In this document: positions 1-11,143 of the stretch, in pieces
How positions within the stretch are numbered: position 1 is the first letter of the stretch
Layout of the letters: each line of letters opens with the position of its first letter
Assembly (NCBI GenBank): GCA_945876155.1
Contig: CAMCMW010000026.1
Span: 1-11,143 of the forward strand
Reading direction: 5' to 3'
DNA: 11,143 nucleotides
From: an uncultured Ruminococcus sp.
GTDB lineage: Bacteria; Bacillota; Clostridia; Oscillospirales; Ruminococcaceae
Position numbers and translations under genes: made by a program
Notes under the pieces: model-generated
Told to the model about the DNA's origin: nothing
The model's input: only the letters and a program-made list of their open reading frames with translations
The model's database searches: none

Positions 1-47
1 CGGCGGTTCATTTAAATCGCTGCGCTCTTAAATGAATAAAGCCGCCG
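1..47. repeat. Interrupted inverted repeat at window edge
   Basis: The outer arms CGGCGG (1-6) and CCGCCG (42-47) flank a 9-bp perfect inner stem, TTCATTTAA (7-15) with TTAAATGAA (28-36). There is a 12-nt loop and five unpaired bases (37-41) on one side. Neither strand has a U-tract that would make it a convincing intrinsic terminator. It lies downstream of the minus-strand flippase gene. It could be a dispersed palindromic repeat cut by the window edge, or part of a 3' structure. Confidence 0.5.
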
Positions 48-128
48 TGAGTAATTTGGGTTTTGGTCAGTTGACTTGTATCGTTAGTATGAATGGTTTT
101 TCATTCTTTGAGCGGCAGCTTTTTGGGG

Positions 129-209
129 AGTTTCGCCCTCTGCGGAGGGCGACAAGGGGACCGCCGTCCCCTTTGAACCCCTGCAGCCTTTGAAAAGGCT
201 GGCGAAACT
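129..209. repeat. 81-bp cloverleaf-like palindromic element
   Basis: The ends are a 9-bp inverted repeat, AGTTTCGCC (129-137) and GGCGAAACT (201-209). Inside are three hairpins with 4-nt loops: CGCCCTC/GAGGGCG (134-140/145-151), AAGGGGAC/GTCCCCTT (154-161/166-173) and CAGCCTT/AAGGCTG (184-190/195-201). With a 5-bp outer stem (129-133/205-209) the whole element can fold as a four-way cloverleaf on either strand. There is no ORF in it. From memory, similar multi-hairpin sequences are common between genes in ruminococci, so I infer a dispersed, non-autonomous repeat. A role as a 3' structure for the flippase mRNA is possible. Confidence 0.65.
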
Positions 210-284
210 TTTATATTAGTAACTGCTACTAAACGAGTTTTTGACAGTTGAGGGAATTTTACAGTAGTCTGCTTTTTTGTGTTG

Positions 285-1703
285 CTACCTCTTGAGAATC
301 TTCCTTACAGTCGCCATAAGCTCGGGGAAGTTGGCGGCTGTTATAAACACGGTAATTCCAAGCTGAATCAGCACATAGTAAGGGGGCTGTTTAATGGCGA
401 GGAGTGACATTCCCATGAGAATCGACAGGTTCATGACCGTTTTTGTGTGGTCAACCTTAAAGTAAATATACCTTCTCGCATCAAATACTCGTATCAGATA
501 GCACGCAAGATAACTTATAAAGCTTGCCGCAACTGCACCGTGTACACCAAATTTCTTAATCAGTATAACGTTCAGCAAAATATTCAGCACCATTGAAACA
601 AGGCTTGTCCAGAAGGAATTTTTGGTGTGCTTTGAAGCGGTGTAGATACTGCTGAAAAACAGGTTAAAGCACATCATCAGCACAGACAGTACCAGCACCG
701 GCGTGTATACATAAGCCTGTGAATACTCCGGGTGGTTGTTGTAGTTCAGGAGTATTCTCGAAACCGGCTGTACAAGCAGTATCAGTCCCGCTGAGGCAAT
801 ATACATTATTGACTGGTACGCCGAGTAAACCGTGGCATAAAATTTGCCCTCTCCCTCGTTGCCGTGTTCGGTTATTGCGGACATATTCCACGCCTGGAAG
901 AAAATCGTCGAAACCATTGAAATAAGGTTGGGTATCTTTGAGGCGGCTGTGTAAAGTCCCACTGCCGTATCGCCCGTTTCTCCGGCTGGTCCGTTAACGT
1001 ATTTGATGAGAATACGGTCGGAAAATCCGGTTATAGTCCACATTACAGCCGTCGGGATAAGAGGCAGTGAAAATCTCACCATGGAGTGAATCATGTCCTT
1101 ATCCGCCCAAGCAAGACTGAAATATTTACCCAGTCCTGCCAGTTTCCAGAGGAATAGTCCGGAGCAGAAGTCGGACAGTATCATTGCTATCATAAAGCCT
1201 TTAATTCCCAGGTCAAGCTTTGATATGAAAATTATATTGAATATGAAAAGTGAAAGAGTCGCAAGCAAGCCGTCAAAGGCGAAAAGCTTTACATAGCCCT
1301 TTGCTCGTATGAAATTTGCACAGGTCAGGCGGAAAACTGATGTACACACGTAGAGCATGAGCCAGGGCGTATAGCCTTTGATGAACGGTATCAGAGAGAA
1401 CAGCGGTGACAGCAGCAGCATCACTAACAACCCGAAAGCCTGTACCACAATTGAATTTGAAAACACCTGCCGCTTATCGTACTCCTTGTCAAGTCCGAAC
1501 CTCAGGATTGCGTCCGACATGGAAAAGGAAAAAACCGGTATCATAAACGCTGCCGACGCCTCAATAAGTTCCTTACTGCCCAGGATATCCGCACCCATGT
1601 ATGTGGTGTAAAGACGGGTGAGGAAAAGAGTCAGTATCTTCGAGCCGAAAGTCCCTATGGCAAATACTAATGTATTAAACACGAGATTTTTATATTTATT
1701 CAT
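285..1703 (-). CDS. Wzx-like polysaccharide/oligosaccharide flippase (MOP superfamily)
   Basis: This 472-residue protein is almost entirely hydrophobic helices. It starts with a short cytoplasmic stretch (MNKYKNLVFNT) and a first helix containing GTFGSKIL, followed by regularly spaced membrane segments, probably 12-14. It ends in a short basic tail (KILKR). Length and pattern match lipid-linked oligosaccharide flippases of the polysaccharide-synthesis branch of the MOP superfamily, which move undecaprenyl-linked repeat units across the membrane for capsule, wall polysaccharide or glycan export. The ATG at 1703 is preceded by GGAG (1712-1715) at 8-nt spacing and by a strong promoter, so it is transcribed separately from the secreted-protein operon upstream. 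No glycosyltransferases or polymerase are visible in the window, so the glycan carried is unknown. The superfamily call is solid; the precise substrate is not. Confidence 0.85.
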   Translation of the reverse strand: MNKYKNLVFNTLVFAIGTFGSKILTLFLTRLYTTYMGADILGSKELIEASAAFMIPVFSFSMSDAILRFGLDKEYDKRQVFSNSIVVQAFGLLVMLLLSPLFSLIPFIKGYTPWLMLYVCTSVFRLTCANFIRAKGYVKLFAFDGLLATLSLFIFNIIFISKLDLGIKGFMIAMILSDFCSGLFLWKLAGLGKYFSLAWADKDMIHSMVRFSLPLIPTAVMWTITGFSDRILIKYVNGPAGETGDTAVGLYTAASKIPNLISMVSTIFFQAWNMSAITEHGNEGEGKFYATVYSAYQSIMYIASAGLILLVQPVSRILLNYNNHPEYSQAYVYTPVLVLSVLMMCFNLFFSSIYTASKHTKNSFWTSLVSMVLNILLNVILIKKFGVHGAVAASFISYLACYLIRVFDARRYIYFKVDHTKTVMNLSILMGMSLLAIKQPPYYVLIQLGITVFITAANFPELMATVRKILKR

Positions 1704-1711
1704 GTTTTAAG

Positions 1712-1771
1712 CTCCAATTTTAAGTTTTAAGCATATACTTTATATTATAACAGATTTCCGGCAAAATTCAA
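1712..1771 (-). promoter_or_regulatory. Promoter and ribosome binding site of the flippase gene
   Basis: On the minus strand a -35 box TTGAAT (1771-1766) and a consensus -10 box TATAAT (1749-1744) are separated by 16 bp. A TG one base before the -10 makes it an extended -10 promoter. The ribosome binding site GGAG is at 1715-1712. The predicted leader is about 35 nt. The promoter sits just beyond the terminator of the neighbouring operon, so the flippase is an independent transcription unit. Confidence 0.75.
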
Positions 1772-1795
1772 ATAGATTTCTGACATTTTCTTTGC

Positions 1796-1828
1796 AAAAT
1801 AAAAAAAGCCTCCCGAATGGAAGGCTTT
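1796..1828 (-). terminator. Rho-independent terminator of the secreted-paralogue operon
   Basis: On the minus strand, 12 bp after the last stop codon, the arms AAAGCCT (1828-1822) and AGGCTTT (1811-1805) form a stem. One C/A mismatch and two further C-G pairs extend it to a 4-nt loop. A U-rich tract follows (complement of the A-run 1796-1807). Geometry and position are those of an intrinsic terminator. Confidence 0.9.
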
Positions 1829-1840
1829 ATTCAGTCAGAA

Positions 1841-2701
1841 TTATTTCTTTCTTGATCTCATTGCAACTGCTGCTGCGCCGATACCTGCTGTTATAACAAG
1901 TCCTGCAACTGCTGCTGCAACACCAGCGTCGCCAGTTGTTGCTGAGTTTGTCTGTGTTGAGTTGCCCAGTACTGCACCGCCGCTTGTTGAACCGCTTGTG
2001 TTGTTGTTAGCTGCCTGTGTTGGTGTCTGGTTGTTATTGGCATCAGTTGGTGCCTGTGTTGGTGTCTGGTTGTTATTGGCATCAGTTGGTGCCTGTGTTG
2101 GTGTCTCGCCGAGGTCATCAGTAACTACCGGCGCACCACCTGTTGTTACCTTGTCAACCTTGATTGTAATACCTGTGTTTGCAGGCTTACCGTCTGAAGC
2201 GTAGTTAAAAGCATTGATATTTGTTGTAAGAATCAGGCAGAGGATAGTATCAGCCGGCTTTGAAAGCTTGAATGATGCTGTATACTGACCGTTTCCTGTA
2301 ATTGCAACCTGGTCGTTTGTTACACTATTCTTTGAAGGGTCAGATGTACCCCAGTAATTTTCTTCACCAATAGTACCTACCAGTTCTGCATAGTAAGGGT
2401 CGCCGTTGGAGCCGTCCTCTTTAACATTACAGCCGCCGTTCAGACCGGAAATTGTAAATGTTACATTAATTGATTCAGTAAATGAACCTGTTTTTGCAAT
2501 GTCAGCTGTTTCCTGTCCCTTTGACCATTCGTTGAGAAGGTTCAGACGAAGTGTAGAACCGTCATCGTTAATTGCAAATGCCTTTTCGGAGGGACCTGTG
2601 TAAGTGAGTTCTGTTTCAGCCGCACTTACAGTCATTGCAACTGTTGAGAATGCTGCTACTGCGCAAGCTGCTGCAGCAGCGAAAAACTTCTTGAAATTCA
2701 T
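1841..2701 (-). CDS. Secreted paralogue 3: shared A-B-C domain, Asn/Thr/Gln/Pro repeat linker, C-terminal anchor tail
   Basis: This 286-residue protein has a signal peptide (cleavage expected after VSA, residue 27). It carries the operon's shared domain at about residues 30-187, with Trp59, Trp117 and the DTILCLIL core segment. A low-complexity linker (about 198-245) contains the 13-residue unit TPTQAPTDANNNQ in tandem. The tail TTGDAG plus a hydrophobic segment (about 260-280) ends in RSRKK. The tail resembles a sortase-type wall anchor or a simple membrane anchor, but no clean LPxTG or NPxTG is present. I chose the ATG at 2701: GAGGTG (2708-2713) lies 6 nt upstream, and the in-frame GTG at 2710 is inside that site. 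It follows paralogue 2 by 18 nt and is the last gene before the terminator. I do not recognise the shared domain as a named family; a carbohydrate- or protein-binding surface role is inference. Confidence 0.85.
   Translation of the reverse strand: MNFKKFFAAAAACAVAAFSTVAMTVSAAETELTYTGPSEKAFAINDDGSTLRLNLLNEWSKGQETADIAKTGSFTESINVTFTISGLNGGCNVKEDGSNGDPYYAELVGTIGEENYWGTSDPSKNSVTNDQVAITGNGQYTASFKLSKPADTILCLILTTNINAFNYASDGKPANTGITIKVDKVTTGGAPVVTDDLGETPTQAPTDANNNQTPTQAPTDANNNQTPTQAANNNTSGSTSGGAVLGNSTQTNSATTGDAGVAAAVAGLVITAGIGAAAVAMRSRKK
2013..2106 (-). repeat. 39-bp perfect tandem repeat (2.4 copies) within paralogue 3
   Basis: Units 2013-2051 and 2052-2090 are identical over all 39 bases, and a third partial copy runs to 2106. 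In the minus-strand reading frame each unit encodes 13 residues, TPTQAPTDANNNQ. The repeat length is a multiple of three, so gain or loss of units changes linker length without breaking the frame. Confidence 0.95.
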
Positions 2702-2707
2702 ATATAA

Positions 2708-2713
2708 CACCTC
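2708..2713 (-). promoter_or_regulatory. Ribosome binding site deciding the start of paralogue 3
   Basis: GAGGTG on the minus strand is separated by 6 nt from the ATG at 2701. The alternative upstream GTG start at 2710 lies inside this site, so it is very unlikely to be used. Confidence 0.85.
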
Positions 2714-2719
2714 TATAAA

Positions 2720-3613
2720 TTATTTTTTCCTGAGCTGTGTGAGTACCCCGATTGCCGCTGTTACTGCAAGTCCGGCAAATGCAGCCGCTATACCTGCGTC
2801 CTTTGTTCCCGGAGCATTGGATGTACTGCCTGAAACCTGATTTCCGGAAGTATTGCCGCCGGAAGTGTTGTTTGCAGTAGTCTGTGCTGCTGTTGTCTGA
2901 ACCGTTGTCGTTACAGTCTCTTCAGTTGTCGGAGCCTCTGTTGCCTCAGGTTCGTCAGTCGGAGTCGGCTCAACGCCGCCTGTTGCAGGTTCTGTAGTCT
3001 CTTCCTCATTTGTCGGGTCTGTTGTTTCCGACGTATCTGTTGTATCTTCTCCCACAGTACCGGTTGTTATTTTATTTATTTTAAATGTGATTCCGGTATC
3101 TGCCGGTTTGCCGCTTGAAGTGTACTGATATGCGTTGATATTAGTTGAAAGAATCAGGCAGAGGATTGTATCAGCCGGTGTACTGAGCATAAAATCAACC
3201 GTATAAGTACCGTCGCCCTCAATTGCTACTGCCTTGTTGTTTTCAGTCGGCTCCCAGGAGGAATCAACCCCTACAGAACCGGAAAGAAACGCCTGAAACG
3301 GAGTCTTTGTACCATCATCAGCCACATTGGCAGAATCAGTACCCAGACCGCTTACTGTGAAGTTTACAGAAATTTTTTCAGCAAACTCGCCTTTATCCAC
3401 TATATCAGCAGTTTCCTGTCCCTTTGACCACTGGTTGTAAATATTCAGACGAAGTGAAACGCCGTCATTTTCCAGAGCGTAAGCATTGGCTGAAGGACCT
3501 ATATAAGTCAGTTCTTTTTCAGCAGCGCTTACAGTGGACATCATCATACTCATTGCAACTGCGGCAGCTACAGCAAATGCAGCTGCTGCAGACAATATTT
3601 GTTTAAATTTCAT
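2720..3613 (-). CDS. Secreted paralogue 2: shared A-B-C domain, Thr/Glu/Pro linker, C-terminal anchor tail
   Basis: This 297-residue protein has a signal peptide rich in Ala and Met (cleavage expected after TVSA, residue 30). The shared domain covers about residues 33-184 and is very close to the first domain of the dockerin protein, including SANAYALENDGVSLRLN, Trp62, Trp120, AIEGDGTYT and DTILCLILSTNIN. An acidic Thr/Glu/Pro linker (about 188-245) passes into a Ser/Asn/Gly stretch. The tail reads GTKDAG, then a hydrophobic helix (about 272-292), then LRKK. The tail aligns with that of paralogue 3 but lacks a canonical sortase motif, so membrane anchoring is as likely as wall attachment. The start is supported by AAGG overlapping the upstream stop codon (TAAGG), 9 nt before the ATG. 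The 11-nt gap implies translational coupling to the dockerin gene. Function unknown; surface exposure is well supported. Confidence 0.87.
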   Translation of the reverse strand: MKFKQILSAAAAFAVAAAVAMSMMMSTVSAAEKELTYIGPSANAYALENDGVSLRLNIYNQWSKGQETADIVDKGEFAEKISVNFTVSGLGTDSANVADDGTKTPFQAFLSGSVGVDSSWEPTENNKAVAIEGDGTYTVDFMLSTPADTILCLILSTNINAYQYTSSGKPADTGITFKINKITTGTVGEDTTDTSETTDPTNEEETTEPATGGVEPTPTDEPEATEAPTTEETVTTTVQTTAAQTTANNTSGGNTSGNQVSGSTSNAPGTKDAGIAAAFAGLAVTAAIGVLTQLRKK

Positions 3614-3624
3614 TAGAGTTTACC

Positions 3625-4875
3625 TTAGCCCATAATGATGTTGCATACTGCAATTGCATCATAAAGGTTAACCTTGCCGTCGCCGTTCATATCGCCGAGG
3701 TCAAGCTGTTCTTCGTCAAGTTTAATCATATTCATCATGTATTTTGCAATCTCAATTGCGTCATAGAGGTTAACCTTGCCGTCTCTTGTGAGATCGCCTT
3801 TTTCATACTTGGAAACGTTTGATGTGCCTTCAATGCCTGTACCTGAAACTGTGAATACAACCTTGAGGCTGCTTGTGATTGCTGTATCAGCTGCGAGGTC
3901 AGCAATGCCTGTGCCGATCCATCTGTCGATAAGGTAAATTCTTGTACCTGCAGGACCGCCCTCTGTGTATGCGAGGTTGATTGCGTCTGCGCTTGTTGTA
4001 TAACCAGCAACTTCCTTGCCGTCAACATAAACGCCGTCTACCTTAACTGCGAGGTCTGCGTACTTATCGCTTGAAAGTCCAGGAATCTGAACTGCGAGGA
4101 ATTCGATTGCATCTGTTCCGCCGTCTGTTACGTTCCATACAACTTCATACTGAGCGTCACCATTTACATAAGCTGTCTTTGAACCTTCTGTCAGAGGATT
4201 TTCTTCATTATTCCATACCTGAGTTGCACCGATAGCACCAACAAGTGCAGCAGTACCGATTGTTCCCTCCGGAACGTCAGGATCTGTTATATCTGCTTCA
4301 GCCATTGTTGTAACGCTGTCAATGGAGAATGTGATGCCTGAATCAGCCGGCTTGCCTGTTTCTGTGTACTGGTATACGTTGATATTTGTTGAAAGAATCA
4401 GGCAGAGGATTGTATCAGCAGGGTCGTTGAGGAGAAATTCTGCTGTGTATGTACCGTCGCCCTCGATTGCAACTGCCTTGTTGTCAACTGTGTTGTCATC
4501 TGCTGCATCAGGTCCCCAGTAAGAATCAGTACCTACAGAACCTGAAAGGTAAGCCTCATAAGGTGTTTCTGTACCGTCTTCTGCGATATTTGCTGAATTG
4601 TCACCCAGGCCGTCAACTGTAAATGTAACAGAAATCTTTTCCTGGAAAGCACCTGTATTTGCAAGGTCAGTAGTTTCCTGTCCCCATGTGTTATAAAGGT
4701 TCATACGCAGTGATACGCCGTCATTTTCAAGGTTAAAAGCGTTTGCGGAAGGACCTGTGTATTTGATTTCCTTTTCTACCATGTCAGCAGCAGATACGCT
4801 TACTGCTGAAAACATTGCTGTTGCTGCAAGAGCTGCAGCTGAAACAGCAGCGATTATTTTCTTAAAACTCTTCAT
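3625..4875 (-). CDS. Secreted dockerin protein with two copies of the shared domain (paralogue 1)
   Basis: This 416-residue protein has a signal peptide (MKSFKKII, cleavage after SVSA near residue 29). Domain 1 (about 36-190) contains Trp64, Trp120 and DTILCLILSTNIN. Domain 2 (about 206-347) is a divergent, apparently circularly permuted relative. A C-terminal type I dockerin (about 359-416) follows. The dockerin has two F-hand repeats, GDLTRDGKVNLYDAIEIAKY and GDMNGDGKVNLYDAIAVCN. The calcium ligands are Asp361/Thr363/Asp365/Asp372 and Asp395/Asn397/Asp399/Asp406. Dockerins bind cohesins on scaffoldins, so this protein should join an extracellular complex. There is no glycoside hydrolase domain. 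I chose the ATG at 4875 because GAGGTG (4883-4888) lies 7 nt upstream; the ATG at 4890 overlaps that site. It is the first gene of the operon. A binding or structural role for the shared domain is inferred from the lack of catalytic motifs. Confidence 0.9.
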   Translation of the reverse strand: MKSFKKIIAAVSAAALAATAMFSAVSVSAADMVEKEIKYTGPSANAFNLENDGVSLRMNLYNTWGQETTDLANTGAFQEKISVTFTVDGLGDNSANIAEDGTETPYEAYLSGSVGTDSYWGPDAADDNTVDNKAVAIEGDGTYTAEFLLNDPADTILCLILSTNINVYQYTETGKPADSGITFSIDSVTTMAEADITDPDVPEGTIGTAALVGAIGATQVWNNEENPLTEGSKTAYVNGDAQYEVVWNVTDGGTDAIEFLAVQIPGLSSDKYADLAVKVDGVYVDGKEVAGYTTSADAINLAYTEGGPAGTRIYLIDRWIGTGIADLAADTAITSSLKVVFTVSGTGIEGTSNVSKYEKGDLTRDGKVNLYDAIEIAKYMMNMIKLDEEQLDLGDMNGDGKVNLYDAIAVCNIIMG

Positions 4876-4882
4876 TTTTAAG

Positions 4883-4888
4883 CACCTC
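4883..4888 (-). promoter_or_regulatory. Ribosome binding site deciding the start of the dockerin gene
   Basis: GAGGTG on the minus strand lies 7 nt before the ATG at 4875. The in-frame ATG at 4890 partly overlaps it and would add five residues (MRCLK) ahead of an already complete signal peptide, so the shorter form is preferred. Confidence 0.85.
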
Positions 4889-4903
4889 ATCCATTTTATT
4901 TTT

Positions 4904-4936
4904 AAATTTTGCTGTCAAATCTCAAAAGCAAATTTT
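4904..4936 (-). promoter_or_regulatory. 5'-terminal stem-loop in the operon leader
   Basis: AAATTTTGCT (4904-4913) and AGCAAATTTT (4927-4936) form a 10-position stem with one T/T mismatch and a 13-nt loop. The predicted transcription start is near 4939, so the hairpin would begin within a few nucleotides of the mRNA 5' end and leave the ribosome binding site free. This placement is typical of stabilising 5' stem-loops, but that role is inferred. Confidence 0.5.
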
Positions 4937-4945
4937 CACGTCTTA

Positions 4946-4975
4946 ATTATAACATTCTGAGAGCCGATATGTCTA
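4946..4975 (-). promoter_or_regulatory. Promoter of the three-gene secreted-paralogue operon
   Basis: The minus strand has a -35 box TAGACA (4975-4970) and a consensus -10 box TATAAT (4951-4946), 18 bp apart, with TG one base before the -10. The predicted leader is about 64 nt. No other good promoter appears between mfd and the dockerin gene or inside the operon. Confidence 0.75.
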
Positions 4976-5072
4976 TGTTAATGCTGACCAAAGATTAGAT
5001 AATTTATTTGTGGGTTATGCTCAAATTGCACAATTTCATACAAAACAGGTATTTTTTATCTTTGGATATTTT

Positions 5073-8000
5073 TTATCCGGCATTCTTCATTGTAGTCAGC
5101 ACTTCCTCCATCAGCTTTTCCGGCGGTTGTCCGGCAGCAAGCTTTACGCTGATATACGGTTTTGCAAGGCTGTTGAAGAGTATTCTTCCCTTGAAACCGC
5201 TGGAAAGTGCGCTTATCTGTTCCGGTTTCGGACTGTTTACATAGAAAAACAGGTTTTCTTTCCTCTGCTGTATTTCCGTTATGCCTAAACCTGCGGCGGT
5301 GTTTCGCAGAAGTGCGGCGTCAAGGAGTCCGGTGACTGCTTTAGGAGGGTCACCGTAGCGGTCTATCAGCTCGTCAAGCATTTCCATTCTGTCCTCCGGG
5401 GTTTCAATTGCCGCAATTTTCTTGTACACGTCAATTCTCTGGGCGGTACTTTCAATGTACTTCTCCGGAATGTGTGCGTCAATGCGGATATCAACGGAAC
5501 AGTCGGCGGCTTTCTGTATCGGCTCGCCCTTTTCCTCTGCAATAGCCTCTGTCAGCAGTCTTAAATACATATCGTATCCTACCGCCTCCATGTGACCGTG
5601 CTGACGACCGCCTAAAATACTTCCCGCACCCCTTATTTCAAGGTCACGCAGAGCAAGTCTGAATCCGCTGCCGAACTGGGTAAACTCCCTCATTGCGTTA
5701 AGTCTTTTTGAGGCAACCTCCGTCAGCACCTTTTCACGACGGAATGTGAAGTACGCATAGGCTCTTCTGTTGGAGCGTCCCACACGCCCTCTTAACTGGT
5801 AAAGCTGGGAAAGACCGAATCTGTCGGCATCCTCTATAATAAGTGTGTTGACATTGGGTACGTCAACTCCGGTTTCTATAATAGTAGTACACACGAGAAT
5901 ATCAATCTCATGCTCCACAAGACTGTTCCATATCTCCGACATTTTTTCCTCTGTCATCTGACCGTGGGCGTAGGCTATTCTTGCGTCCGGCAGCAGTTCC
6001 TGAAGTCTTGCTGCACATCCGGAAATGCTGTCCACTCTGTTGTGGATATAGTACACCTGACCGCCTCTTTTAAGCTCCCTTGTGATTGCCTGCAAAAGCA
6101 TAGCCATGTTGTACTCCACAACATAGGTCTGGACTGGGTGTCTGTCCTGGGGCGGTTCTTCAATGACCGACATATCACGGATACCGCTCATTGCCATATT
6201 AAGGGTTCTCGGAATAGGTGTGGCAGAAAGTGTCAGCACGTCAACCCCGGAAAAGTACTCCTTGAACTTCTCCTTGTGCGCCACTCCGAAACGCTGTTCC
6301 TCATCTATAATAGCAAGTCCCAGTGCTTTGAACTCGATATCCTTCTGCACCAGTCTGTGAGTACCTATTATAATGTCGATAAGACCTTTTTTCAGCCGCT
6401 TTATGATATCCTGCTGCTGTTTCGGGGTGCGGAATCGTGAGATAAGCTCGATGTTTACCGGAAACTGCTCAAATCTGCGCAAGGCAGTCTGATAGTGCTG
6501 CATGGCAAGGACTGTGGTGGGGACAAGTATTGCGCACTGCTTTCCGCTCATAACGCATTTCATTGCCGCCCTCAGTGCAACCTCAGTCTTGCCGAAACCA
6601 ACGTCGCCGCAAAGCAGTCTGTCCATAGGACGGCTTTTTTCCATGTCTTCCTTAATCTCGCTTATGGACTGCAATTGGTCGTCAGTTTCCGCATAGGGGA
6701 AACGTGCCTCGAAGTCCTTCTGCATTTCGTCGTCCGGCAGAAAGGCAATGCCCTTGCTCTGCTCCCTTTTTGCGTAAAGCTTAATCAGTTCCTCCGCCAT
6801 GTCCTTGACGGCTCTCTTTACGTTGTTTCTGGTTTTCTGCCACTCCGCAGAGGACAGTTTGTTAAGCTTTACTCCTGTATCGTCCCTCGGTCCGATATAC
6901 TTTGAAACCATGTCAAGCTGTGTGACCGGAACATATAAGACGTCCTTTCCGGCGTACTGAATGGTAATATAATCCTTTGTGATTCCCTCCAGCTCCAGTT
7001 TTCTGATACCCACAAAACGCCCGATACCGTGGAGAGAGTGTACCACTAAATCTCCGGCTGTGATGTCCGACAGACTGCGTATCTCCTCGCCCTTCTTGTG
7101 CTTTTTCTTCTTTTTCTTTGAGGACGCCGCCTTCGCCTGGGTTATGACCGCCGTTTTGTTTTCAAGGTACTCAAATCCCCCCGAAAGACTTCCTGTCATA
7201 AGAAGAACTCTTCCCGGCTGACAGGTACTGTCCGGCTTTGCAATATCACAGCCTATTCCGGCTTCTTCAAGGTCCTGCTTTATAATAGGAAGGGTTTTCT
7301 CACTTCCGGCAATGAGCATCGTCCGGAATCCTCTTTCACAGTAGCTGTGCAGATCCTCGTTAAGCTGGCGCATTTCTCCGCCCCATGGTGCATTCTGGAC
7401 TCCCTCGAAGTTAACTATTTTCTTATAGCCTACCCTGTCCAGTCCGGAAACAAAATTGCTCATAAACAGGCACTTGTTCTGCTGTGCCATTTCCACTATC
7501 TGAGAAAACTCGAAATAATGTCCTTCAAGTCCACGGCAGAGTACGCCCTCTTCAAGGAGGATTTTGCAGTCCTCGTTATACTGTGCGGTAACGCCCTTTG
7601 CTGTTTCCACGGCGTTTGTGTACTCCGCAAACACCACAAGTCCCTTTGCATATTCAAAAAGGGACGGTATTTCCTCATAAATAAGCGGAATGTACTTGTC
7701 AATACAGTCAAGCTCGTTTCCCTCTCTCAGCTTTTCCACATCACAGGAGAGATTCTCCCTTATGATATCCGCCTTTTTACTGCGGATTGATTTGGCAAGC
7801 TTTTCTATTTTGTCCGCAAGAGCGATTCTGTCGGTGATTGTTTCAACGGCTGGTGCAATTTTAAACTCGTCAATGCTGTCGGTACGGCGCTGTGTTTCCG
7901 TATCGAAATAGGACATACTGTCAATATCGTCCCCCCACAGTTCAATTCTCACCGGCTGTTCCGACTGTACCGGAAAAATATCCGCAATTGCTCCTCTTAC

Positions 8001-8522
8001 CGAAAACTGCGACGGGCCTTCAACCTTGTCACTGCGCACATAGCCCATATCCACAAGCTTTGATTTCAGCGTTTCAAGGTCAAGCTGAGAGCCGCTTTTT
8101 ATTGTAACGGTGTACTCCGAAAGCACCTCCGGCGGAATCACCGGCTGCATTGCCGCTTCAGCAGACGCCGCAAGAACACGGCACTCACCGTCAAGGACAG
8201 CAGAAAGTGCCTCAATTCGCTGGTGTTCGTAATCTCTTGACATTCCCTCGGCTGAGGTCAGAAATATTTCTCTTGCCGGAAAAAGCATTGCCATGCGATT
8301 AGTCTGCGACATCATATTTATGTCATCACACAGTTTTTTCGCCTCCGCCTCGGTATCGGTTATAACGAGAACAAAACCATTTTCGCTGAGTGTGTAAAGC
8401 ATCTGTGACTTGTGAATATGTGACAGTCCGGCGGCGCACACCGGTGATATGCCGGATTTTATGCAGTTTTCAACAGTTTTCCAGCCGTCGAGTTCTCTGA
8501 ACGTTTGTTTAAAAAATTCCAT
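5073..8522 (-). CDS. mfd: Transcription-repair coupling factor Mfd
   Basis: This 1149-residue protein matches the usual Mfd length of about 1150. Mfd displaces RNA polymerase stalled at DNA damage and recruits UvrA. The N-terminal UvrB-like region has a degenerate nucleotide loop (GLSHIHKS, 32-39) and the RGAIADIFP segment (176-184). The RNA-polymerase-interacting domain is at about 487-545 (DLVVHSLHGIGRFVGI). The SF2 translocase has Walker A GDVGFGKT (639-646), DEEQ (740-743), LSATPIPR (765-772) and the motif VI region LRGRVGRSNRR (910-920). The C-terminal regulatory domain contains RIDVYKKIA (1029-1037). A lysine-rich tract (469-478) links the N-terminal part to the polymerase-interacting domain. 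The start at 8522 is chosen because GGGAGGT (8527-8533) lies just upstream. A 31-residue upstream extension would read through palindromic repeat DNA and lacks family similarity. It is the last gene of the glmU-pth-mfd run; no clear terminator follows. Confidence 0.97.
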   Translation of the reverse strand: MEFFKQTFRELDGWKTVENCIKSGISPVCAAGLSHIHKSQMLYTLSENGFVLVITDTEAEAKKLCDDINMMSQTNRMAMLFPAREIFLTSAEGMSRDYEHQRIEALSAVLDGECRVLAASAEAAMQPVIPPEVLSEYTVTIKSGSQLDLETLKSKLVDMGYVRSDKVEGPSQFSVRGAIADIFPVQSEQPVRIELWGDDIDSMSYFDTETQRRTDSIDEFKIAPAVETITDRIALADKIEKLAKSIRSKKADIIRENLSCDVEKLREGNELDCIDKYIPLIYEEIPSLFEYAKGLVVFAEYTNAVETAKGVTAQYNEDCKILLEEGVLCRGLEGHYFEFSQIVEMAQQNKCLFMSNFVSGLDRVGYKKIVNFEGVQNAPWGGEMRQLNEDLHSYCERGFRTMLIAGSEKTLPIIKQDLEEAGIGCDIAKPDSTCQPGRVLLMTGSLSGGFEYLENKTAVITQAKAASSKKKKKKHKKGEEIRSLSDITAGDLVVHSLHGIGRFVGIRKLELEGITKDYITIQYAGKDVLYVPVTQLDMVSKYIGPRDDTGVKLNKLSSAEWQKTRNNVKRAVKDMAEELIKLYAKREQSKGIAFLPDDEMQKDFEARFPYAETDDQLQSISEIKEDMEKSRPMDRLLCGDVGFGKTEVALRAAMKCVMSGKQCAILVPTTVLAMQHYQTALRRFEQFPVNIELISRFRTPKQQQDIIKRLKKGLIDIIIGTHRLVQKDIEFKALGLAIIDEEQRFGVAHKEKFKEYFSGVDVLTLSATPIPRTLNMAMSGIRDMSVIEEPPQDRHPVQTYVVEYNMAMLLQAITRELKRGGQVYYIHNRVDSISGCAARLQELLPDARIAYAHGQMTEEKMSEIWNSLVEHEIDILVCTTIIETGVDVPNVNTLIIEDADRFGLSQLYQLRGRVGRSNRRAYAYFTFRREKVLTEVASKRLNAMREFTQFGSGFRLALRDLEIRGAGSILGGRQHGHMEAVGYDMYLRLLTEAIAEEKGEPIQKAADCSVDIRIDAHIPEKYIESTAQRIDVYKKIAAIETPEDRMEMLDELIDRYGDPPKAVTGLLDAALLRNTAAGLGITEIQQRKENLFFYVNSPKPEQISALSSGFKGRILFNSLAKPYISVKLAAGQPPEKLMEEVLTTMKNAG

Positions 8523-8526
8523 TCTG

Positions 8527-8533
8527 ACCTCCC
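8527..8533 (-). promoter_or_regulatory. Ribosome binding site deciding the mfd start
   Basis: GGGAGGT on the minus strand is 4 nt from the ATG at 8522. This is a near-perfect anti-16S match and argues against the longer reading frame that opens at 8615 inside a repeat element. Confidence 0.9.
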
Positions 8534-8551
8534 TTTTTAAAGCACAAAACA

Positions 8552-8578
8552 GCATACCCCCATTAAAGGGGGGAATGC
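8552..8578. repeat. G/C-block hairpin in the mfd leader
   Basis: GCAT-A-CCCCC (8552-8561) pairs with GGGGG-A-ATGC (8569-8578), with one A/A mismatch and a 7-nt loop (8562-8568). It ends about 19 nt upstream of the mfd ribosome binding site. No U-tract follows on the minus strand, so it is not an intrinsic terminator. It may be a dispersed palindrome or a processing or stability structure between pth and mfd. Confidence 0.55.
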
Positions 8579-8601
8579 CGTGATAATAGTATTTTTTGTA
8601 T

Positions 8602-8675
8602 GTAGGGGCGACCAATGGTCGCCCGTTAGTTTAATGCGGATATTTTGTTTTCGGGCGAGCAATGCTCGAGCCTAC
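8602..8675. repeat. 74-bp MITE-like element with paired hairpin termini
   Basis: The two 24-nt ends (8602-8625 and 8652-8675) are inverted copies pairing at 19 of 24 positions around a 26-nt AT-rich spacer. Each end is itself a palindrome around AAT: GGGCGACC/GGTCGCCC in the left end is perfect, and GGGCGAGC with GCTCGAGC in the right end has two mismatches. The element ends 2 bp from the pth stop codon. I recall similar GTAGGGGCGACC-type palindromes between genes in many gut Firmicutes, but could not check. It encodes nothing. No target-site duplication is evident. Confidence 0.65.
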
Positions 8676-8677
8676 GG

Positions 8678-9304
8678 TTATGAATTGAACTTATTCATCG
8701 CCTCGTCAGTCTTTCCACTGACCATAAGCTCCAGTGCCTCACAGGCGTTTTCAGCCGCCTTGTCCATCTTTTCCTTGTCCTCGTCACTGAAATGCCCCAG
8801 CACCCAGTCTGCAAGGTCATATTTTGGGTGCGGTTTCTTGCCTACTCCCATTTTTATCCTCGGAAAAGTGTCCTCACCGGTCAGATGAATAATGCTCTTG
8901 ATACCGTTGTGACCGCCGTCACTGCCCTTTCGTCTTATGCGCAGTCTGCCCGGTTCAAGGGATATATCGTCGTATACTATTATAACGTGGTCAATGTCCA
9001 GCTTGTAAAAGTTCATTGCCTCCTCTATTGCCTGACCGCTGTTATTCATGTATGTTGTGGGTTTCAGCACAACGCAGTGCTTACCGCCGATTGAAACATC
9101 TCCGCAGAGAGACTTGAACTTCATTCTCTTTATATCAAAACCCAGCTTTTCCCCAAGCTTATCCACAACCATGTATCCGGCGTTATGCCTTGTACCCTCA
9201 TACTGCAAACCGGGATTTCCCAGTCCGGCGATGAGATACTCAACCTTTCCGGACGGCAGGTTTTCTTCCTTTGATATCTGCCTGAATTTGTCAAATATAC
9301 TCAT
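8678..9304 (-). CDS. pth: Peptidyl-tRNA hydrolase
   Basis: This 208-residue enzyme cleaves the ester bond of peptidyl-tRNAs that drop off ribosomes, freeing tRNA for reuse in the cytoplasm. The family signatures are all present: GLGNPG (Asn30), TRHNAGY with the catalytic His40, KPTTYMNNSG (Asn87), YDDISLEPG (Asp112) and GSDGGHNGIKSI (Asn133). These correspond to His20, Asn10, Asn68, Asp93 and Asn114 in the E. coli enzyme. An N-terminal extension of about 20 residues (MSIFDKFRQISKEENLPSGK) precedes the usual start of the fold. No better internal start is available. The ATG lies 5 nt after the glmU stop and has only a weak purine-rich site (GGAAA) further upstream, so translational coupling to glmU is likely. 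The pairing with glmU and mfd matches the Bacillus spoVC region. Confidence 0.97.
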   Translation of the reverse strand: MSIFDKFRQISKEENLPSGKVEYLIAGLGNPGLQYEGTRHNAGYMVVDKLGEKLGFDIKRMKFKSLCGDVSIGGKHCVVLKPTTYMNNSGQAIEEAMNFYKLDIDHVIIVYDDISLEPGRLRIRRKGSDGGHNGIKSIIHLTGEDTFPRIKMGVGKKPHPKYDLADWVLGHFSDEDKEKMDKAAENACEALELMVSGKTDEAMNKFNS

Positions 9305-9309
9305 TTATA

Positions 9310-10689
9310 TCACGCTTTTTCCAGTCTTTTTTTCAGTTTCCTCAGGCTGTAGCCTTCTTTAATCTGGACTGTTCCCCTGTCAATTGCAAGAGCGTAGTCC
9401 GGAACATCTTTGGTAACGGTAGTACCAGCGGCGGTGTAAACGCCCTTTCCAAGCTTTACAGGAGCAATAAGGTTGGTGTTGCAGCCGATAAAGCAGTTGT
9501 CACCGATTTCACAGCGGCTCTTTACTATACCGTCGTAGTTTACGGTAACTGTTCCACAGCCGAAGTTTACCTTCTTGCCGACGTCGGAATCGCCCACATA
9601 GGTGAGGTGAGCAACAGCAGTACCCTCGCCGATTGTGGAATTCTTGATTTCAACAAAGTCGCCGATTTTAACGCCGCTTTTGATATGACTGCCCGGTCTG
9701 ATGTGTACCCACGGACCGATTTTAACACCGGCATCAATGGTAGACTTGAACGCCTGAACGTAGTTTAAGCTTACACCGTCCTTGATATCGCAGTCGTCTA
9801 TAATACAGTTAGGACCAATAAGGCAGTTTTTGCCTATAACTGTCTTTCCTCTCAGGTGTGTACCAGCCATAATCTCAGTACCTGCGCCGATTTCAACGTC
9901 ACGTCCGATAACAACACCGTCAATGCAGTTGAACTCAACGCCGTTTTCAAGGTGCTTTTCGATAACAGCCATTCTTGCAACCGTGTTAAGCTCCAGCAGT
10001 CCTTTTCTGTCGTTTGCGCCCAGAACAACGTCCGGATTTTCGGAGATATATGCGTTTACTCGTCTTCCCTTGTTAAGGGCAATGAAAACGCTGTCTGTCA
10101 GGTAGTATTCACCCTGGGAATTATTGGTTGTAAGCTCTCCCAAGTACTCCATAAGGTCGGCTGTCTTAAACCAGTATGCGCCGGAATTGATTTCCTTTAT
10201 CTCCTTCTGCGCAATTGTAGCGTCCTTTTCCTCAACAATTGAAGTGATACCGTTTTCGCCTCTTATAATCCTGCCGTAGCCCTTTGGATTCTCCGAAACG
10301 GCTGTTATAACTGTGATTGAGTTGCCCTCGCTTTCGTGCATTTCAAGGGACTTCTTTATTGTTTCGGAGTCAATAAACGGTGCGTCACCGCAGAGTACCA
10401 GCGTATTTCCTCCGCCGTTTTCTTTCATAAAGGGTACTGCCTGCATAACCGCATGACCAGTACCCAGTCTTTCGCTCTGGAGGACTGTTTCATAGCGACC
10501 GTTTAAGTACTCGTCTATCATCTCGGACATAAAGCCTTTTACTATACAGAGTTTATTGATTCCGGCACCCTCGCAAGCCTTTATTACCCATTCAAGCATA
10601 GGCTCACCCAGTACTTTAAACATAGGCTTTGGTATGTCAGCTTTCATTCTCTTTCCCTGACCGCCAGCCAGTATTACAGCATTATTCAT
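9310..10689 (-). CDS. glmU: Bifunctional UDP-GlcNAc pyrophosphorylase / glucosamine-1-phosphate acetyltransferase GlmU
   Basis: This 459-residue cytoplasmic enzyme makes UDP-N-acetylglucosamine, the entry sugar nucleotide for peptidoglycan and teichoic acid. It acetylates GlcN-1-P and then uridylates the product. The N-terminal uridyltransferase domain has LAGGQGKRMK (7-16), GTGHA (76-80), GDAPFI (101-106, metal ligand Asp102), EEKDA (153-157) and NNSQGEYYLTD (189-199). The C-terminal left-handed beta-helix (from about 250) has hexapeptide repeats and the acetyltransferase signature AHLTYVGDS with catalytic His361, equivalent to His363 in E. coli, plus NYDG (384-387). Full length agrees with the family (about 456). 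The ATG at 10689 is preceded by GAGG at 10-nt spacing. It is the first gene of the run that continues into pth and mfd. No strong promoter consensus was found upstream on this strand. Confidence 0.97.
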   Translation of the reverse strand: MNNAVILAGGQGKRMKADIPKPMFKVLGEPMLEWVIKACEGAGINKLCIVKGFMSEMIDEYLNGRYETVLQSERLGTGHAVMQAVPFMKENGGGNTLVLCGDAPFIDSETIKKSLEMHESEGNSITVITAVSENPKGYGRIIRGENGITSIVEEKDATIAQKEIKEINSGAYWFKTADLMEYLGELTTNNSQGEYYLTDSVFIALNKGRRVNAYISENPDVVLGANDRKGLLELNTVARMAVIEKHLENGVEFNCIDGVVIGRDVEIGAGTEIMAGTHLRGKTVIGKNCLIGPNCIIDDCDIKDGVSLNYVQAFKSTIDAGVKIGPWVHIRPGSHIKSGVKIGDFVEIKNSTIGEGTAVAHLTYVGDSDVGKKVNFGCGTVTVNYDGIVKSRCEIGDNCFIGCNTNLIAPVKLGKGVYTAAGTTVTKDVPDYALAIDRGTVQIKEGYSLRKLKKRLEKA

Positions 10690-10748
10690 TCTGAAAATTC
10701 CTCTTTTCCTTTATACTAAAGATTTTTTAATCTGTTTTTGTGTTATGT

Positions 10749-10774
10749 ACTTTCTTTGAATGCACAAAGAAAGT
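10749..10774. repeat. 10-bp perfect inverted repeat in the glmU leader
   Basis: ACTTTCTTTG (10749-10758) and CAAAGAAAGT (10765-10774) are perfectly complementary around a 6-nt loop. Neither strand continues into a U-tract, so it is not a terminator. It could be a regulator binding site, an RNA hairpin in the glmU leader, or one copy of a dispersed palindrome. Confidence 0.65.
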
Positions 10775-10965
10775 TAATCCACCCCAGGACTTGCAAAAAA
10801 ATCACATATCGCAAACTTATCCACTATAATATATTATGACAATAAAATGAAGATTTTTCAAGTGATTTTTCAAAAAAATTCTGAAACTTAAAATTTTTGT
10901 GAATATTGCTACAAAATTAACATCAAGATTTTTTTCAAAAACATATGGAATTTTGCTTTGATATA

Positions 10966-10974
10966 TGATATAAT
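10966..10974 (+). promoter_or_regulatory. Extended -10 promoter of ppdK
   Basis: TATAAT (10969-10974) is preceded by TG one base upstream (10966-10967). The -35 position at 17-bp spacing (10946-10951, TGGAAT) matches poorly, so recognition probably leans on the extended -10. Transcription would start near 10981, giving a leader of about 70 nt. Confidence 0.65.
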
Positions 10975-10986
10975 ATTAAGTAACCG

Positions 10987-11020
10987 GACCGAAAGGGCGT
11001 ATTCTGTCTTTTTTCCGGTC
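10987..11020 (+). promoter_or_regulatory. Stem-loop in the ppdK leader
   Basis: GACCG-AAA (10987-10994) pairs with TTT-C-CGGTC (11012-11020) with one bulged C, leaving a loop of about 17 nt. An alternative 6-bp stem, ACCGGA/TCCGGT (10983-10988/11014-11019), is mutually exclusive with it. The hairpin begins just after the predicted start site and ends about 16 nt before the GGAGG site. I do not recognise it as a known riboswitch. Confidence 0.45.
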
Positions 11021-11051
11021 TTTAGTAAAAAAATCTGGAGGTATAAAACCA

Positions 11052-11143
11052 ATGGCAAAGAAATATTGCTACCTTTTCTCTGAAGGTAATGCTAACATGA
11101 GAGAACTCCTCGGCGGTAAGGGCGCTAACCTGGCTGAAATGAC
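11052..11143 (+). CDS. ppdK: Pyruvate, phosphate dikinase, N-terminal fragment (cut by window end)
   Basis: The first 30 codons read MAKKYCYLFSEGNANMRELL followed by GGKGANLAEM. This is the characteristic N-terminus of bacterial pyruvate phosphate dikinase, where the GGKGANL segment belongs to the nucleotide-binding domain. The full enzyme (about 870-880 residues) interconverts pyruvate, ATP and phosphate with phosphoenolpyruvate, AMP and pyrophosphate. In many anaerobic Clostridia it serves glycolysis or gluconeogenesis. The start is supported by GGAGG (11037-11041) 10 nt upstream and by a nearby extended -10 promoter. It is transcribed divergently from glmU. PEP synthase shares a similar early motif, but the opening residues favour PPDK. 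Confidence 0.93.
   Translation, partial: MAKKYCYLFSEGNANMRELLGGKGANLAEM

Follow-up and report, generated by a model that had tools for sequence, protein, structure and literature searches.

A dockerin protein and two tailed paralogues of an uncultured Ruminococcus share an unnamed module in two apparently permuted orders

In Ruminococcus flavefaciens the surface cohesin ScaE is described as the partner of the ScaB and CttA dockerins and of those of several non-enzymatic proteins (PMC5301203), and the gene order reported for the sca cluster places cttA between scaB and scaE (PMC4081043). In Ruminococcus bromii the binding domain of Sas20 is also reported in a separate Sas20d1-like protein, which bears a sortase motif and is wall-anchored (PMC9112005); the same source places the anchored gene between tRNA ligase and endonuclease genes, so no operon is implied there. 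The cellulose-binding beta-sandwiches of the carbohydrate-binding module (CBM) 3 type are likewise counted among the closest known systems. Here we describe three neighbouring genes, P1, P2 and P3, within an 11,143-nucleotide stretch from a gut bacterium that has a cellulosome, an uncultured Ruminococcus sp. (GenBank GCA_945876155.1, contig CAMCMW010000026.1, positions 1 to 11,143; hereafter the window). An earlier note on this DNA had read the locus as one uncharacterised secreted domain delivered in scaffold-docking and surface-anchored forms. That interpretation is partly supported: the sequences point to one module, to two circular permutants of it and to two routes to the cell surface.

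One module in two orders

The three proteins and their parts are listed below in window coordinates; the positions, strand and adjacency of the genes were as first described.

3625..4875, minus strand: P1, 416 amino acids; signal peptide, domain A-B, domain B'-A', type I dockerin
4300..4779, minus strand: P1 first domain, order A-B, residues 33-192, predicted beta-sandwich
3820..4254, minus strand: P1 second domain, order B'-A', residues ~208-352, divergent, between the first copy and the dockerin
3640..3801, minus strand: P1 type I dockerin, residues 359-412, symmetrical NLYDAI repeats
2720..3613, minus strand: P2, 297 amino acids; signal peptide, domain A-B, Thr-rich linker, hydrophobic-basic tail
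3056..3520, minus strand: P2 domain A-B, residues 32-186
2723..2821, minus strand: P2 tail, SNAPGTKDAG, hydrophobic stretch, LRKK
1841..2701, minus strand: P3, 286 amino acids; signal peptide, domain A-B, Gln/Asn-rich linker, TTGD-type tail
2135..2620, minus strand: P3 domain A-B, residues 28-189
1844..1951, minus strand: P3 tail, NSATTGDAG, hydrophobic stretch, RSRKK; sorting-signal-like by eye

Each protein begins with a Sec-type signal peptide, recognised by eye as in the earlier reading, and all three share a domain of ~155 residues composed of two halves, A and B. By sequence the three are paralogues: pairwise identities between their first domains are 70, 54 and 59%, and P2 as query retrieved P1 at E 1.8e-69 and P3 at E 7.6e-63, far beyond chance. 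The two conserved Trp residues (W64 and W120 in P1) and the DTILCLIL core, noticed before, are present in every copy of this comparison. Half A follows the pattern YTGPS..DG..LRxN..NxW..VTFTVSGL and half B the pattern A.L.G..G..YW..I.GDGxYT..DTILCLILSTNIN. No Pfam or NCBIfam model covers the domain, no confident match to a well-described family turned up, and neither database places an enzyme domain in P1, P2 or P3; on both counts the first description stands. Weak non-dockerin matches, for instance to Tox-GHH, Phyto-Amp, RAP1, DamX and gelation factor, were discarded as below cut-off or at E >0.002 (Pfam, NCBIfam and sequence searches of solved structures), and a whole-model Foldseek search of P1, which returned mostly long alignments of high root-mean-square deviation to capsids and similar chains, was not used. 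AlphaFold2 predicted the first domain of P1 with block means of 74-97 for the predicted local distance difference test (pLDDT) over residues 31-190.

Absent from the earlier note was the second copy in P1, in which the two halves occur in reverse order. Half-profiles for A and B were built from A-B domains only (28 of 31 chosen proteins, three having failed the pattern cut; the first domain of P1 was included), and they detected this copy as B'-A' (E 5.7e-5 and 1.1e-4). The same half-profiles detected many relatives of B-A order, among them the Ruminococcus protein P0055 with B (E 1.7e-14) ahead of A (E 1.4e-21). When the halves of the profile were swapped, 15 B-A targets were matched over all or most of the profile length at 83-126 bits, compared with 47-70 bits for the unswapped profile; the corresponding scores were 39.5 versus 21.1 bits for the second domain of P1 and 35-47 versus 21-26 bits for four B'-A' proteins, and three shuffled controls of the test stayed below 3 bits. 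The B-A domain of P0055 was predicted with pLDDT block means of 83-98, and those for the second domain of P1 were poor (42-76). In the predicted models the main strands of P1 A-B and P0055 B-A correspond after rotation, as does the short helix following the CLIL strand; smaller elements are unlike, namely strands 95-97 and 103-105 in P1 and helix 56-62 in P0055. Most of the R-x-N-x-x-N-x-W and TNIN positions are kept through the permutation in the class consensus. Because swapping the halves approximately doubles the score, and because a single beta-sandwich whose main strands match is predicted for either order, A-B and B-A are, on these profiles and models, natural circular permutants of one fold, both of them present in P1. 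Among 220 proteins or frames with matches, the half order was BA in 129, AB in 45, ABBA in 25, BABA in one and incomplete in 20, counts that include near-identical metagenome clusters and genes repeated through overlapping loci and so do not represent independent events.

According to the model we favour, a single transcription unit would yield three proteins built on this one ~155-residue beta-sandwich module, A-B and B-A being carried by P1 and A-B by P2 and P3. The module would most likely bind plant polysaccharide, as a CBM-like domain unnamed in Pfam and NCBIfam. The symmetrical type I dockerin of P1 would plug non-covalently into a single-cohesin, ScaE-like surface protein, making P1 a docked two-module adhesin that works like CttA of R. 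flavefaciens, while P2 and P3 would be held at the cell by their own C-terminal tails. Together the three would hold both the cell and the cellulosome, which shares the ScaE-like socket, close to the substrate. Taken whole, this picture of three surface-display proteins seems to us evenly poised between right and wrong.

Tails, ligand and docking

The linkers and the hydrophobic-basic tails ascribed to P2 and P3 are present. The P2 tail, beyond what had been noted, does not have the Gly of LPXTG-type signals: P2-type tails of alignment A2 read approximately [AS]P[TG]TK[DG]AG, with Lys replacing that Gly, and may be sorting signals of a variant form or may simply anchor the protein in the membrane. 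A serious contender, to which we give roughly one part belief to two of doubt, is that P2 and P3 are not sortase substrates at all, their tails serving as membrane anchors or the proteins being shed. Consistent with this, the NCBIfam anchor models left the P2 and P3 tails unmatched yet recognised the genome's ScaE-like protein, used as a control, and the Lys of the P2-type tails points the same way. Against it, P3 ends in TTGD, a hydrophobic stretch and RSRKK; TGD is found in the tail of 14 of the 16 lone A-B proteins (L092-L107); an A-B relative in genome G007 meets the NPXTG model of NCBIfam; and the window's own genome contains five sortase matches above cut-off. Anchoring of P2 and P3 through their tails, possibly covalent, is what we infer.

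The proposed ligand is suggested by relatives of the module. Pfam scans covered 14 of 35 loci, 33 of which gave A or B matches, and GH5 was found in 6 of the 14; in such proteins the B-A module sits after the GH5 cellulase and ahead of a dockerin. Because relatives place B-A in this position, a carbohydrate-binding module is the likeliest, if unproven, identity of the shared domain. The association with glycoside hydrolases is seen in relatives only, being absent from P1, P2 and P3 themselves, and no known CBM family model in Pfam or NCBIfam matches the module. Thr/Glu-rich linkers part the module from the dockerin in the GH5 proteins and exceed 100 residues in L108 and L115; an identity of B-A as an 'X module' was set aside in view of these long linkers and of carriers without a dockerin. 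In L108, L111, L112, L113 and L115 a second module without a Pfam name lies between GH5 and B-A, at residues ~385-545.

It is rather unlikely that the module is structural or protein-binding rather than glycan-binding, whether as a stalk, as a stabiliser resembling an X module or as a receptor or adhesin for other proteins. Many carriers are small tailed surface proteins, paired side by side at some loci, whose chains include neither a dockerin nor an enzyme, and the fold matches also cover pilins and other beta-sandwiches, all of which would suit such a role. The long linkers of the GH5 proteins, however, set them apart from the dyad of X module and dockerin reported in R. flavefaciens (PMC5301203), many carriers have no dockerin, and most of the R-x-N-x-x-N-x-W and TNIN positions survive permutation. 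Returning to glycan binding, we tentatively propose, with somewhat less than even confidence, a new carbohydrate-binding module family that is kept in two permuted forms, both fused in one dockerin protein. A single operon would display the module on the same cell in two ways, through a cohesin-dockerin plug and through anchoring tails belonging to the proteins themselves. The two permutants may work as a pair that needs both forms, because G007 encodes them as two neighbouring tailed proteins and P1 joins them in one chain.

The C-terminal dockerin reported for P1 was confirmed: Dockerin_1 (PF00404) scored 37.8 bits against a cut-off of 22.9, and two calcium-loop repeats can be read in the sequence. 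The P1 genome (an assembly 77% complete) has 68 dockerin matches, six cohesin matches and a sca-like gene cluster, and contig C1 encodes a ScaC-like protein (cohesin and dockerin), a ScaB-like protein of 920 amino acids and a ScaE-like protein. The ScaB-like protein has two cohesins, found through the genome search and through protein pieces where a whole-protein scan gave nothing, and a C-terminal dockerin-like repeat pair that scored 17.4 bits, under the Pfam cut-off; a search of this C-terminus against solved structures gave no dockerin. The ScaE-like protein combines one cohesin with an NPXTG tail (25.3 bits against an NCBIfam cut-off of 23.5).

Dockerins were clustered using 66 of the 67 non-window matches (one fragment was dropped) together with those of P1 and the ScaB-like protein, and the P1 dockerin fell into a cluster of 26 of the 68 that includes the ScaB-like dockerin. 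Against profiles from which both were held out, P1 scored 89.0 bits and the ScaB-like dockerin 50.7 bits, compared with 15.7-43.6 bits for the other two large clusters. Of 24 other cluster members, 20 were scanned (C227, C200, the C211:3917 fragment and C120 being left out): six contained LRR_5, one a phosphoesterase, one GH5, one RCC1 with other repeats and one Big_2, and in the remaining 10 nothing was named above cut-off except the dockerin. Three consecutive, clearly related dockerin proteins of unknown function on contig C22 of the same genome (L153) also belong to this class. Because P1 shares the dockerin class of the organism's own ScaB-like scaffoldin, the clustering suggests that P1 is docked at the surface through the ScaE-like cohesin, by analogy with CttA and ScaE.

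P1 could instead be a cellulosome subunit that docks on the ScaB-like or ScaC-like protein, at the cohesins that carry enzymes, and adds a targeting module to the enzyme complex, leaving only P2 and P3 to serve the surface. This arrangement, the nearest to that of the earlier note, gains from the small number of cohesins known for 68 dockerin matches, from the GH5 cellulase within the P1 dockerin cluster (L152) and from the incompleteness of the assembly, in which other cohesins may be missing. We nevertheless regard it as improbable: the P1 dockerin groups with that of the ScaB-like protein itself, a dockerin not expected to bind the cohesins of its own protein, and lies outside the cluster holding the ScaC-like dockerin. 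Of the suggestion that the locus links an extracellular complex, a substrate and the cell surface, the part supported is that docked and tailed versions stand side by side; docking of P1 to a surface cohesin, as its dockerin class suggests, would bring all three proteins to the surface by two routes, instead of assigning one to the extracellular complex and two to the cell.

Several observations weigh against the ScaE-like partner and the likeness to CttA. The residue pattern given for group-4 (ScaE-binding) dockerins is Gly-Arg in both repeats (PMC5301203); these recognition residues are missing from P1, where both repeats, read by eye, are NLYDAI, giving Leu-Tyr in place of the Gly-Arg of group-4 and ScaH dockerins. 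Proteins combining leucine-rich repeats with a dockerin are reported in the same source as mostly failing to bind any tested cohesin. The P1 gene lies behind mfd on contig C26, outside the sca cluster, unlike cttA. A point of likeness is that the P1 dockerin is symmetrical, as group-4 dockerins are. In the B-A relative P0055 the dockerin is 45% identical to that of R. flavefaciens ScaH (8ajy; Foldseek E 2.1e-5, profile A4 E 4.3e-7).

Lastly, the alternative that A and B represent a pair of small, independent domains, joined in either order, and not one permuted fold, is very improbable: 20 of the 220 entries have incomplete halves (e.g. L110, L114, L116), but some of these reflect contig ends, frame breaks or weak matches, complete pairs occur in the other 200, continuous confident strand sets are predicted for both orders, and the new termini of each form fall in a loop of the other.

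Gene layout and occurrence in other genomes

Further features of the locus are as follows.

4946..4975, minus strand: promoter-like site upstream of P1, TAGACA-18-TATAAT with TG ahead of the -10 element, 11 of 12 positions; consensus match only
2012..2106, minus strand: 39-bp perfect tandem repeat, 2.4 copies, encoding part of the P3 linker
1805..1828, minus strand: terminator-like hairpin and T tail after P3; pattern match only

The gaps between P1 and P2 and between P2 and P3 are 11 and 18 bp, GAGGTG precedes the starts of P1 and P3, and the likely ribosome-binding site of P2, identified by eye, is overlapped by the P1 stop codon. We infer that the three genes form a single transcription unit and are co-expressed. 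Promoter-like and terminator-like sites are in slight excess over shuffles across the window (22 versus 16.3 and 14 versus 10.6), which weakens both flank calls, and Rfam at gathering scores gave no match in the window. The upstream neighbours are ordinary (mfd, with TRCF domains, a peptidyl-tRNA hydrolase and a GlmU-like transferase), and a MatE/MurJ-like protein is encoded downstream. The copy number of the 39-bp repeat is likely to be variable.

A search with P2 gave matches in 8 of 81 related genomes, and in 4 of 11 within the genus, the window's own counted. The linkage of the three genes holds in part: all four same-genus loci lie behind mfd, but the triplet is not universal, two loci having P1 and P3 and one being without a dockerin. 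In G001 and G008, P1 and P3 are retained and the P2 slot is without an intact gene. A match to P2 residues 247-296 (E 3.5e-4) lies between P1 and P3 at G008:C100:85181-85330 (L133), beside stop codons, and the P1-P3 gap of G001 (L126) contains, by eye only, a few P2-type tail residues, also beside stop codons; because of these tail pieces, the middle, P2-like gene was probably lost in both. G007 has two tailed genes instead, one of the order B'-A' and the other A-B, with no dockerin within the 4 kb searched. The module is also exchanged in the P2 slot: P0046 carries B'-A' on a tail 78% identical to that of P2, and the tails of P0052 and the A-B protein P0007 share 92% identity. A P1-like relative, P0017, is 91% identical and is assigned by its source to Porcipelethomonas.

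The genome of the window holds a fourth copy on contig C71 (L194:229-1794), with an N-terminal dockerin, a Thr-rich linker and a C-terminal B'-A' domain; the gene that follows encodes a dockerin and, by eye, a zinc-protease-like stretch. Lone A-B tailed proteins occur at 16 loci in Ruminococcus and relatives, one record being titled Alistipes, and B-A tailed proteins are found in further genera, some loci having adjacent pairs. Small tailed B-A proteins are adjacent in L170, L172, L184 and L186, from other genera of the family, and L170 and L184 have an additional small secreted-looking neighbour. At G036:C108:20319-21251 (L164) a B-A and dockerin match is broken by TGA, through either a broken gene or an assembly error. 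In Bacteroidota, A-half matches lie in two loci, L116 and L122 (Marinilabiliaceae, Bacteroides), two of the matches being in L116, and B-like sequence can be recognised by eye after them; these matches suggest either transfer or deep ancestry of the module. A genome count of 51 of 197 was not taken as the number of module carriers, because alignment A6 holds dockerin columns and many of its rows are dockerin-only; architectures were read from loci instead.

Relation to known adhesion systems

The locus appears to be a new variant of known surface-display and cellulosome adhesion systems, built on a module unnamed in Pfam and NCBIfam. Compared by architecture, CttA (CBM-CBM-X-Doc) resembles P1 in having two modules followed by a dockerin, without an enzyme domain, and a dockerin class in common with the genome's own ScaB-like scaffoldin. 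P1 differs in that no X module was seen in the Pfam scan, its B'-A' domain ending a few residues before the dockerin, and in that one module family is used in two permutations and is accompanied by two tail-bearing paralogues. On contig C1, no open reading frame of at least 120 amino acids lies between the ScaB-like and ScaE-like genes. By analogy P1 would work like CttA, yet it is not classed as CttA, since its gene lies elsewhere and no X module came to light. Sas20 offers a second parallel, with one binding domain in a dockerin form and in an anchored form (PMC9112005). The Sas20d1 structure described there has helices following its sandwich, unlike the module studied here, and kinship with it is unsupported by sequence, two module profiles matching no solved non-dockerin domain below E 0.6.

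If our reading is correct, the cellulosome field would gain an unnamed binding module and a natural case in which both circular permutants of one domain occur in a single protein. It would also assign an adhesin resembling CttA to a genome in which the sca cluster has none between the ScaB-like and ScaE-like genes. Docked and tail-anchored routes would then present the same module from one gene set, allowing a direct test of fibre attachment in relatives of Ruminococcus.

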